Source: Rhyzopertha dominica
Taxonomy: Eukaryota; Arthropoda; Insecta; Coleoptera; Bostrichidae
Reading direction: 5' to 3'
DNA length: 64,000 nucleotides
Assembly (NCBI GenBank): GCA_025024175.1
Contig: QCXZ01000064.1
Span: 14,384,001-14,448,000 of the forward strand
The notes beneath the pieces were generated by a model. The model was given only the letters and a program-made list of their open reading frames with translations. It was not told where the DNA came from and made no database searches. The translations under genes were made by a program, and so were the position numbers. Positions 23,785 to 41,642 of the stretch are shown here, piece after piece; the stretch's first letter is position 1; every line of letters starts with the position of its first letter.

Positions 23785-24420
23785 TCACTTCAAACAAACA
23801 TTTTTATGAGTGTATGGTTCAACTAAAAAGAAATTAGTTGGCATCAGCCTGTAGCGCTCGCCTGTGACATTGATGGCCTTACCAAGGTCGTTTTCAAAAA
23901 AATAAAGACCAATGATGCCGCCGGCCCAAAATCCACACCATTGTGAAGTGGTGAACCTCGTGTGGGTTTGCGTATATATACGGCAATTTTGTTTGTTAAC
24001 AAAGCGATTCAGCCAAAAATGAGCCTTGTCGCTAAGAATGATTTTTCGGCCAAAGGTGGGATCCTCTTCCAATCGTTGCGAAGCCCAGTTAGCGAACAAA
24101 TAGCGATGTCTATGGTCAATAATTTTCAGCTCCTGGATCAGTTGGATCTTATACGGCGGCAGGCCCAGGTCTCGAATTTGGCCACCAAACGTTGGAGAGT
24201 CGACTTGAAGGACCACTGCGTCTTCTATAAAATGGGAGCTAAGCGCGCAATGTCTGCTCCACGGAACCCTAATTTTGATAATAAAGTTTTATCATTTGCA
24301 CGTGTTGCTCAGTTGCGTAACTTGACATAGTGATTAAGCATTAGTGACAACAGCATTTTTACAGGCGCCGCTAAAACGATACGGCTGCAACAAGCTGTCA
24401 ACATCGACGCGCCCATTTTG
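23785..24420 (-). pseudogene. mariner-like transposase relic, N-terminal and middle piece
   Basis: On the minus strand an open stretch of 143 codons (24216-23785) contains LPPYKIQLIQELKIIDHRHR, FANWASQRLEEDP, FGRKIILSDKAHFWLNRFVN (first catalytic Asp), NKQNCRIY, WCGFWAGGIIGLYFFEND and NVTGERYRLMPTNFF. Just upstream in another frame is STLQRLVAKFET, the end of the N-terminal helix-turn-helix region. About 100 residues between the two are missing. DEAHF has become DKAHF, the segment before WCG is out of register, and the second and third Asp blocks are absent. The copy is therefore broken. Its 3' part is probably at 22510-22655. Confidence 0.85.
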
Positions 24421-38154: not shown

Positions 38155-38828
38155 ACAAGGTCCGCCACCTAAAACTCCCCAGGCTCGTATTTTCATTATT
38201 TTTTTAGGTACAACCTTAAGTTATATGTCAAATCGTAGGTCTTTTCAAACTCTTTAAAAATGCATAGTGAGTGTCCAAAGTTTTTTTTGCCAATTATANT
38301 ATCTTGCAAATAAAGTTAATTTTTATAAACATTTTTTACCTTATTCCGTATAATAAATATTGGTTCATAGTTGGNTGCCGACTTTTGTCTTCTCCAATTT
38401 GTGTCATTATAATATATTTATGCGTAATGTTTACTCCTTGCTAATAAAAAACTCGTCGCTTCCATATTCTGTTAATAGTTAATTTTAAGTGTTAATTAAA
38501 CAGCTGTAGAAATTATGCGTGCATCCCCGTCGCTGCACACAAAACCCCAAAATTTAAAGTAACTTTGATATAAATCACGTACAAAGTTCGTTATAAAGAG
38601 AGAGGCTGGAAAACAATACCCTGCGAGGAGGCTAGTTTTGTTTTCTACATTTTGCACTAGCCTCATAGCAGAGTATGGTTTTCTAGCCTCTCTCGCTTTA
38701 GAACGAACTTTGTACTTGATTTATTTGAAAGTTGTTCTAAATTTTGGGGTTTTGTGTGCAGCGATATGTATGTAGGTATAATTTATACCTTAATAAGCTG
38801 TTAAACTAACACTTAAAAATTATGCTCG
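38155..38828. mobile_element. Foldback element, copy 2 (left arm plus hairpin interior)
   Basis: Begins CAAGGTCCGCCACCTAAAAC after a TA, nearly identical to copy 1. The interior holds a large perfect-looking palindrome: the left arm 38530-38636 (from CGCTGCACACAAAACCCC to AGGCTAGT) is inverted at 38656-38765 (ACTAGCCTC to GTGCAGCGAT) around a 19-base loop. Copy 1 keeps only one arm of that palindrome, so this copy shows the fuller structure. The right half of the element is missing: sequence common to copy 1 stops near 38817 and the 330-bp ribozyme repeat begins at once. Confidence 0.85.
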
Positions 38829-39068
38829 AGAACTGCATTCGTTGCAGAAATAGTCGTTGGAGGACGTCTGCCGCTTTTAAACGCCCACAACACAGTGGGC
38901 TGCCGTTTAGATTAGTTCTCCACAGAAACGAGTGGATGATGCCGTATTGTCACTAGATAGCATGGTATCATCCACACTGTAATTCTCGCAAACACAACGG
39001 CTACCTTGGCGTATATAAGGGAAGCCAGATGTATGCCATGTTGTCTGCGTTGGTCGTTGGTACTGTAG

Positions 39069-39110
39069 CTGTGCTGAGGAGGCTTTATAAGCCGAAACAG
39101 ATGTCCACAG
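39069..39110 (+). ncRNA. Type I hammerhead self-cleaving ribozyme, unit 1
   Basis: All parts are present and in order. Stem I is CTGTG (39069-39073) paired with CACAG (39106-39110). The core CTGAGGA (39074-39080) fits CUGANGA. Stem II is GGCTT/AAGCC (39081-39093), a perfect 5-bp stem with loop TAT. GAAA follows at 39094-39097. Stem III is AC/GT closed by loop AGAT (39097-39104). Cleavage nucleotide is C39105, giving a GUC site. Short stem III with stem I open is the minimal type I form found in Penelope-like elements, newt satellite and animal retrozymes. No core base deviates, so it should be active. Confidence 0.92.
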
Positions 39111-39398
39111 ATTGTTTTGACGCAGGCGACATGGCATAGACGTAATTATTGTGCTTGTGAACTGCATTCGTTGCAGAAATCGTCGTTGGAGAACGTCTGC
39201 CGGCTTTTAAATGCCCACAACACAGTGGGCTGCCGTTCAGATTAGTTCTCCACAGAGAAGAGTGGATGATGCCGTATTGCCACTAGATGGCATGGTGTCA
39301 TCCACACTGTAATTCTCGCAAACACAACGGCTACCTTGGCGTATATAAGGGAAGCCAGATCTATGCCATGTTGTCTGCGTTGGTCCTTGGTACTGTAG

Positions 39399-39440
39399 CT
39401 GTGCTGAGGAGGCTTTATAAGCCGAAACAGATGTCCACAG
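39399..39440 (+). ncRNA. Type I hammerhead self-cleaving ribozyme, unit 2
   Basis: Identical over the whole 42-nt motif to the unit-1 ribozyme: stem I 39399-39403 with 39436-39440, core 39404-39410, stem II 39411-39423, GAAA 39424-39427, cleavage after C39435. The two predicted cleavage sites are exactly 330 nt apart, so a transcript across the array would release one 330-nt monomer (39106-39435). Confidence 0.92.
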
Positions 39441-39650
39441 ATTGTTTTGACGCAGGCGACATGGCATAGACGTAATTATTGTGCTTGTGAACTGCATTCG
39501 TTACAGAAAACGTCGTTGGAGAACGTCTGCCGGCTTTTAAACGCCCACAACACATTGGGCTGCCGTTCAGATTAGTTCTCCACAGAAAAGAGTGGATGAT
39601 GCCGTATTGCCATTAGATGGCATGGTATCATCCACACTGTAATTCTCGCA

Positions 39651-41642
39651 TACTTCTTATCAACCTATTCAACAGTTATCGAGCTATGGAAGGAATACGT
39701 TCACTTGGTCTGTCTAAGTACATCTAGAATAGAATCACTTATAAGTTTCTAGACAAGATCTTATAAATAGTAATCACGAATTGGTGCAGTTTTTAGCATC
39801 GTCCAAAATAGTGAGGTTGAATGTCAATTAACTTAGTTTGTCTCACATTATTGCCCGTTTTGCTTCAAGTATGTTCTTTCCTATCCACACAAAGTTAGAC
39901 TTCTGCCGCTCCAGTTTAAACGTGAGTTGCACTTTCAATTACTTTATTTGAAACTCTTACCTAAAGTTTGCTAGACGTGTGACAAGAATCTGTGGACTCG
40001 AATTTAATATTTAACGAGACAATTGGTTAACCGAGAGAAACTGGACGGATCCTATCCCCACGTGAATTCTGCAGAAGTAATCGTAAACATATCGTTGCTT
40101 GTGTGCAGATTACAGTGACGGTACGTGGACTCATGAATATTTAAAATCTCATTATTTCCATGAAGCGGAAGGCTGCGCTTTCTTTGAAACACTTCTGGTG
40201 GCGGCAGCGTGACGATTGTTGAAATGCTCGGAAAATTCTCGGCGACTAAGCGAGACAACGAAGTTTTAGTTTAATTTCGGCGACAGTCTTGTTTCTCTTT
40301 GGAGATACGTTCTTCCGGAAACTTTCAAGGAAATGTTGCCTGTAACTTGTGACCGTGGCGCTATTGGATGAAATCATTGCTATTCCCTTATGAATTCCAC
40401 CGTACGAGTTCATATGACTACTTTCTGTAACTACAAGAACTAAGGTAAAGAATCACTTCGCAGAATTCATGGACCTACTTTGTCTTTCGAAATGCAAATT
40501 ATTTAATTATTTTAACATGAGTATGTATGAAATCAAATTCCTTCTCACACAAATACCTCGTAAACTAAATAGCAGTTAACCATGCATGTATATTGTATAC
40601 CACAATGTTGTGTCCATTACATGTTGTTATATAAATGATGATATTTCATTTTAAAAATAATAGCAAAAATTAGTGTTAAAAATTAGACTCGTATCTTCAT
40701 TGATTTTAAAAGTGGGGCGCTTTTAGAAGTAGAAACTCAATTACTCATTTATACAGCTACCGACTGCAATTTCCAAAATGTTTGCATCTTTAGCAGCAAA
40801 AAAAGTTTGCCATAAAGATGCAATAAAAATACAACATACTGTCTTATACAACCGTTTATTTGAATTTTGCAAACAAGTACACTAAAATATGCTGTGGAAG
40901 TCCTTGTTTTTTGTATTTTCACTTATTATTTTACTATTGATATTATACCTGAAACATGGCCTTTCAGAAGTAATAAGTTCTTGATCCCGTTGATCTACTG
41001 AAGAACTTTGAACGAAGAGGCAGCCATAAGGTTTGAGAGTCTGTGTAACCATACGTGACAGTGGTAGTAACCATTAGGGGATGTACGAGTTCATACCGCT
41101 ATAGTGAAAGACTGGTGTTCCTCCCAGGTGTAAAGTTTATTATAACGTATGGGATTGATGTTTCCCCAGCTAAGTAGGCGATAACATACGAATACCTGCG
41201 ATTGTGTTTTATGTTAAACTGAGAACAAGAAAAACTTATAATTGATATTTTCGTAACACGCACGTTTATGTGCTAGGGACCATTGGAGATATGCAACATC
41301 TACACCGCTATACAAGTGGTCGCAGACACCAGCACCTGCACTGTCCACTGAAGCTCAAAAATTCTAGCCTAGCTTTACGAGGCCAAAAATCAATAGGAGT
41401 CTCGTGCGAATATGGTGCGAAGACGGGTATTAACAGATTATTAAATGATTACTGAGGCTCTAACCTAGGGGTCTCGTAATGTACCAGGTTAGGACGTAAC
41501 TCGAACCGGCAATTATCGGTTTGTTTCAGATACTACGTGGCGTGTGACGTTTGTGACAACNTNNTTTTTATCTTAACTTGATAACTACTGGCATCTTTCA
41601 TAATCCCGTTAATTTCAGTTTTAAGCGGGGTTGCGAATGTTT
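39651..41642. other. No recognisable gene
   Basis: A slightly GC-richer part at 39900-40400 has a 68-codon minus ORF that I cannot assign; the rest is AT-rich. A short phrase near 41300 vaguely resembles the BEL/Pao fragment but is too weak to call. Confidence 0.45.

Follow-up and report, generated by a model that had tools for sequence, protein, structure and literature searches.

A 330-bp tandem array

Within the window, the whole 64-kb stretch of Rhyzopertha dominica DNA analysed here, a tandem repeat carries what look like hammerhead ribozymes, and it raises two questions: what kind of element it is, and what machinery could have inserted it. The features referred to below are the following.

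38819..39651, plus strand: retrozyme insertion, single-armed, 2.5 tandem 330-bp units (TRF, repeat finding and cyclic alignment; locus L048)
38932..38975, again at 39262-39305 and 39592-39635, plus strand: second hairpin (sequence; paired in the predicted fold of the unit)
38979..38984, again at 39309-39314 and 39639-39644, plus strand: GTAATT after the second hairpin, start site B region (sequence; the family ends here)
39032..39138, plus strand: hammerhead hairpin, copy 1, with the motif at 39069-39110 and outer arms at 39032-39050 and 39120-39138 (sequence, descriptor)
39360..39470, plus strand: hammerhead hairpin, copy 2, with the motif at 39399-39440 and outer arms at 39360-39380 and 39450-39470 (sequence, descriptor)
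39142..39147, again at 39472-39477, plus strand: GTAATT after the hammerhead hairpin, start site A region (sequence; the family ends here)

TRF placed the repeat at 38819-39650 (period 330, 2.5 copies, 95% matches, score 1531) and repeat finding gave the same 330-bp register, bearing out the description of about 2.5 near-identical 330-bp tandem units in an earlier, sequence-only reading. The array has a GC content of 47% and contains no frame of at least 130 aa, and the unit is thus without a reverse transcriptase (RT) or endonuclease frame. As RNA, the 330-nt unit folds far better than its shuffles (z -7.8, 0/100 shuffles as good). Each full unit also contains TATATAAG (39012-39019 and 39342-39349), about 90 nt before the predicted cut, which may serve as an internal promoter (TATA box). 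A fold-back element (38483-38818) adjoins the array on its left, where the boundary is certain only to within about 10 nt; it has 99-nt arms that are 84% complementary, plus pairs of 23-nt and 39-nt arms, and looks like a MITE or a fold-back transposon.

Hammerhead motifs in the window

The motif of copy 1 starts with CTGTG (39069-39073) and CTGAGGA (39074-39080), followed by stem II (GGCTT/AAGCC) and GAA, and ends with stem III (AC/GT, loop AGAT), C39105 and CACAG (39106-39110). The second motif is the first shifted by 330, with predicted cuts after 39105 and 39435. Two type I motifs with a complete core and cuts 330 nt apart, as the earlier reading had claimed, were therefore confirmed by the sequence and by a strict type I descriptor, which detected 2 motifs in the 64-kb window, both on the plus strand, 0 on the minus strand, and 0 in 60 dinucleotide shuffles of the 64 kb searched on both strands. 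Moreover, stem I is extended outward by complementary arms of 19-21 nt, a feature missing from that reading.

The covariance search that had been proposed for this locus gave nothing at the Rfam gathering threshold, either in the window or in 20 related loci; only in E-value mode, below threshold, was Hammerhead_3 found, at 24.4 and 22.9 bits (E 0.024 and 0.063, gathering score 48.5). A score no better than that of shuffled sequence had been fixed beforehand as one result that would refute the retrozyme reading. The descriptor separated the motif from every shuffle (0/60) and so did not refute this reading, although Rfam placed the motif below its curated cut-off. Minimum-energy folds retained the outer stem and stem II without forming a complete hammerhead.

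A family dispersed through the genome

The assembly holding the window comprises 479 Mb in 138 contigs; a COX1 search gave a single fragment of 58 positions, with a stop. A 25-nt core pattern, with up to 2 mismatches, was found at 902 places in it (465 + 437), compared with 0 for the reversed core in the same assembly, which upholds the expectation of genomic copies beyond this locus; a scan of viral contigs with the core gave 0. Comparison of the window unit with the assembly yielded 112 matching pieces at 40 loci (best 40 of 1390 candidates). A consensus built from 16 full-length units measured 323 nt, giving a family unit of about 323-330 nt, and positions below follow this consensus, position 1 being the first base after the predicted cut.

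Fifty loci were read by cyclic alignment allowing both orientations: 40 (the window and 39 others) are the best matches to the window unit, and the 10 further loci, which lie on a single contig, were taken in order from the exact core matches not read before, out of the 902 matches. This sample is biased to long copies, since 40/50 loci are best matches to the window's own unit. The counts exclude a stray segment in L055 and, in L010, L015, L026 and L042, weak pieces that lay beyond the scanned ranges.

At least one complete motif passed the strict descriptor in 22/40 loci. Stem III is the palindrome ACAGCTGT in 38/61 hairpins, the window having ACAGATGT; such a palindromic stem III could pair between two units, and amphibian hammerheads have been described as acting as dimers (PMC7229834). 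Among the 61 hairpins, compensatory changes in the hammerhead stems were seen in 0/1255, 0/295 and 0/303 cells, and conservation of the hammerhead core (0.947) was no better than that of the rest (0.934). Both results are as expected of decaying copies of one lineage, yet they lend the motif no support either. As biochemical events, self-cleavage, circular RNA and retrocopying are proposed for this family.

Insertions with two fixed ends

The outer ends of the insertions lie mostly at either of two sites, A (42-53) or B (209-219). Site A is just 3' of the hammerhead hairpin (..GACGTAATTATT) and site B just 3' of the second hairpin (..ACTGTAATTCTCGCA), about 170 nt from A, and both have a common form consisting of a hairpin, a few bases and GTAATT. 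For counting, ends were classed as A at 40-54 and as B at 207-220, ranges chosen after the ends were seen.

Two arms were present in 33/50 loci, in all 33 of them arranged head-to-head with their 3' ends outward. Both ends could be classified in 22 of these 33 loci, and all 22 combine one A with one B, for which random pairing gives P ~2e-6; the other 11 have one classifiable end (10 loci) or none (1 locus). Three loci (L009, L011 and L038) have similar junctions with differing exact breakpoints and may not be fully independent, and breakpoints within the complementary stem arms are ambiguous. Single-armed loci (n = 17) end at A in 14 cases, at B in 2, one of them the window copy, and at neither in 1. 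Relative to the sequence-only reading, to which other copies were not open, three points are new: the head-to-head form of the insertions, the pair of fixed 3' ends and the role of the second hairpin.

By cyclic alignment, the left end of the window copy is near start site A and its right end is at start site B, where GTAATT at 39639-39644 forms the right end of the insertion. No target-site duplication was detected at this single-armed copy. Its three passes have private variants in common at 9/25, 5/22 and 6/14 variant positions, compared with 41/552 for passes within an arm overall, a high degree of sharing that would be expected if the passes were copied from one RNA and the insertion is fairly young.

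The A-ended single-armed copies in L031, L040, L042 and L058 start at 203-209, close to B, and the B-ended window copy starts near 35-45, close to A, as though synthesis had been halted on reaching the other origin. Over all arms, the excess at the B site is weak (7 vs 3.9, p 0.09).

Target duplications, arm stops and junctions

Flank words were measured outward from GTAATT. In the 22 two-ended loci, the words shared by the two flanks averaged 7.3 nt, compared with 4.6 nt for shuffled pairings (highest of 300 runs, 5.2), and they reached at least 8 nt in 7/22 loci where 0.27 was expected. No such excess was found in the 17 single-armed loci (mean 4.6 vs 4.5), with L023, which has a 10-nt flank word in common, as the exception. 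Two-armed insertions have the look of completed events in which both nicked strands served, and single-armed ones that of events left incomplete. Moreover, private variants were common to opposite arms at 54/692 positions (7.8%), compared with 3.2% when arms were re-paired (highest of 300, 5.0%), so that a single RNA, or a single source, probably served as the template for both arms.

Arm ends accumulate in the 3' arm of the hammerhead (positions 17-43, 20/83 vs 6.9 expected) and near its 5' arm (264-287, 16/83 vs 6.2 expected), in windows that were picked after looking; the densest 11-nt window contains 14 arm ends, above the 99.9% level of simulated maxima (12). At the predicted cut site arm ends are not enriched (5/83 vs 2.8 expected, p 0.15) and so offer no evidence of cleavage. 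An enrichment there was striking in the first four or five loci and was gone at 83 ends.

The position of the junctions bears on another origin of the head-to-head arms, namely self-priming of one cDNA or of a folded-back antisense RNA, as has been suggested for Penelope elements (PMC3846280). Two observations would suit such an origin: the unit is highly self-complementary, and 10/33 junctions have summed positions within a single 20-nt window, with 9 of the 10 lying across the hammerhead stem (permutation P 0.009). However, 0/33 junctions are mirror palindromes within 15 nt, and self-priming accounts neither for the duplications nor for the consistent pairing of one fixed site with the other at the two outer ends, so we regard it as distinctly improbable. 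Exact microhomology was not raised at the 26 junctions of the first 40 loci (1.0 vs 0.68 nt).

The same data address the view that the repeat is a fossil satellite or a DNA-type repeat, with a decayed or accidental hammerhead, that is no longer or never was processed as RNA. The lack of covariation, of extra core conservation and of cut-site enrichment would all agree with this, as would Rfam scores below threshold and a descriptor passed in only 22/40 loci. Against it, fixed 3' ends, variable 5' ends, variable unit number and target duplications are marks of retrotransposition, and the complete motif is absent from 60 shuffles, making this view highly improbable for the family; individual copies may well be dead.

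A Penelope-like family in the same genome

Penelope-like elements have been considered strong candidates for moving animal retrozymes, because they have type I hammerheads and tandem copies in common with retrozymes and coexist with them (PMC7229834), and LINEs or Penelope-like elements are still both named in this role (PMC11722881). In the assembly, a GIY-YIG search gave 144 matches among 150 scored (of 2080 candidates), more than 50 of them with an identical 33.5 bits. Neighbouring matches within 5 kb were oriented minus/plus in 19 cases, minus/minus in 1 and plus/minus in 0.

One Penelope-like element, L059, was analysed; it has an 813-aa frame, its 3' part is tandem and its left arm is inverted. 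Its protein is 42-49% identical to closer relatives and 31% to an Anolis protein, and its best named relatives include those of a ladybird beetle and flies. Together with the mostly spider relatives of a transposase fragment in the window (see below), these would suggest an arthropod, perhaps an insect. The relatives have RT and other precomputed domains, with GIY-YIG in part. As a Pfam scan of the L059 protein at E 0.001 gave 0 families, its domain calls rest on the precomputed domains of the relatives, on the GIY-YIG match at this locus and on a visible YVDD motif, which we take to be an RT signature. Of 5 further ends fetched, 4 belong to the same family.

A 37-nt tail distinguishes the two outward ends of L059. 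Searches with its 3' end, in which the best 40 of 781-786 candidates were scored, gave 7 close head-to-head pairs, 7/7 with one tailed and one untailed end, and with L059 itself 8/8 pairs are long plus short. Short-plus-short pairs are invisible here because the query favours long ends; long-plus-long pairs, which the same query can detect, were not seen.

A hammerhead-like hairpin is also present in the L059 family (L059 742-890 and 3522-3633, reverse strand of the locus), in which stem II, GAAAC and GTC are kept but CGACAAA stands in place of CTGANGA. Stem II is retained together with GAAACGTC in L060, L063 and L064, and in L062 with one base missing. Judging by these changes, the ribozyme of this family seems to have been lost. 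The retrozyme has no sequence similarity to L059 or to the GIY-YIG 3' regions of L060 and L062-L064, and its 22-nt match to L061 (E 0.09) is at chance level. Likewise, no start-site sequence common to the retrozyme and an autonomous element was found among L059-L064.

The pattern in this family also weighs on the possibility that the retrozyme is moved by a LINE, with a first cDNA started at A and the second strand priming internally, with a preference for B. As is generally known, L1 twin priming also yields head-to-head inversions with duplications, and the single-armed copies, mostly A-ended (14/17), look as if A were the first start site. Twin priming would nevertheless be expected at variable places, and B is fixed and in use in 22/22 two-ended loci; in addition, the same pattern is found in the Penelope-like family of this genome, the only autonomous type compared. 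We therefore consider movement by a LINE unlikely.

A model for the insertions

The explanation that we prefer, and hold to be probable, is that of a non-autonomous retrozyme family copied by a Penelope-type enzyme from both nicked strands at A and B. Tandem copies would be transcribed and their RNA cut by the hammerheads, some of it probably being circularised, to judge from the family. A Penelope-type reverse transcriptase/endonuclease would nick both strands of the target, and each target 3' end would prime DNA synthesis inside the RNA, at A or at B, and each of these sites would serve once in a complete event. The two resulting cDNAs, which often exceed a unit in length, would then be joined head-to-head, often within the hammerhead stem, and would sit between target duplications of about 8-12 bp, while a product from one primer only would give a single-armed tandem copy, as in the window.

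This model builds on what is shown at the level of DNA sequence: the motif, the family, the fixed ends and their polarity, the one-A-one-B rule, the duplications, the variants shared between arms and the Penelope-like parallel. Cleavage, circles, the simultaneous use of both sites and the enzyme are steps that we infer from them, and the identity of a Penelope-type enzyme would follow from the insertion pattern rather than from shared sequence. Against the model, A and B are about 170 nt apart and the Penelope-like tail is only 37 nt.

If the template were a circular monomer carrying a single A and a single B, the pairing rule and arms longer than a unit would both be accounted for. Linear multimers, together with enzyme halves that prefer different sites, also fit, since the Penelope-like pairs obey the same rule. 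A bolder and more tentative version, which we regard as quite possible, is that a dimeric Penelope-type enzyme reads one RNA, probably circular, from two origins, that retrozymes parasitise Penelope-like elements, and that the hammerhead hairpin is doubly used. In such a case A and B would lie on nearly opposite sides of the circle, with one subunit per nicked strand, the hammerhead hairpin would cut the RNA and also mark A and help in the joining of the cDNAs, and the one-A-one-B rule would be the genomic footprint of the process.

Published properties of Penelope-like elements bear on the preferred model. In support of it, Frangieh et al. (2024, PMC11167929) reported that a Penelope-like enzyme from Anolis can cut and extend AT-rich DNA on both strands; this enzyme initiates internally, at two neighbouring sites that match the tail, and a dimeric form is predicted for it. 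Inverted pseudo-LTRs, one of them with a tail, and duplications of 8-10 bp were described by Arkhipova and colleagues (2013, PMC3846280), who favoured self-priming. Head-to-head arms, two 3' ends (there differing by the tail), duplications of 8-10 bp, a hammerhead near the start site and tandem copies are points of likeness (PMC11167929, PMC3846280). In contrast, the retrozyme has no RT or endonuclease frame and no similarity to L059, and its ends are about 170 nt apart, whereas those of Penelope-like elements are 30-40 nt apart (PMC11167929, PMC3846280).

Relation to known elements

The designation of the locus as a retrozyme-like element is supported by one motif per full unit, unit size, GC content, dispersed copies, duplications and coexistence with Penelope-like elements. 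Published unit sizes of animal retrozymes are 170-400 nt. By the criteria for animal retrozymes, units here fall within about 150-450 bp and copies are dispersed, with duplications of more than 4 bp in the two-ended loci. The element resembles the animal non-LTR retrozymes of Cervera and de la Pena (2020, PMC7229834): its tandem units measure a few hundred bp, carry one type I hammerhead each and encode no protein, its GC content is below 50%, and its copies are scattered through a genome that also contains Penelope-like elements. The amphibian 330-bp class described there has a weak helix III with a palindromic tetraloop, like the 38/61 hairpins noted above. This likeness is one of described features, and the main text of that work contains neither "inverted" nor "head-to-head" (0 occurrences of each). 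No report of head-to-head arms or of a two-end rule for retrozymes was found in searches of open-licence papers or in the same main text.

Newt satellite 2 (PMC7229834), with a repeat likewise of about 330 bp, and pDo500 of cave crickets (PMC2808323) are also animal tandem repeats with type I hammerheads, but they form long arrays, whereas the copies described here are mostly short scattered insertions (50 loci). Plant LTR retrozymes are similarly non-autonomous, with a hammerhead-processed RNA as the proposed intermediate (PMC4918200, PMC7229834), but they differ in having type III hammerheads, LTR-type signals and 4-bp duplications (PMC7229834). We conclude that the element is a further family of a known kind, the retrozymes, with an insertion pattern that is undescribed for retrozymes in the literature covered.

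This pattern bears on the choice between the movers proposed for animal retrozymes (PMC7229834, PMC11722881). It provides a test applicable to any assembled retrozyme-bearing genome, head-to-head arms with one of each end, and it names two short hairpins as candidate start sites. That the same site was never used twice in 22 pairs constrains how a Penelope-type enzyme would engage template and target.

The window also contains a mariner/Tc-like transposase fragment of 167 aa (23785-24288, minus strand). A Pfam scan of this frame at E 0.001 gave 0 families; it has 84 related proteins, the named ones being mostly from the spider Trichonephila clavipes.
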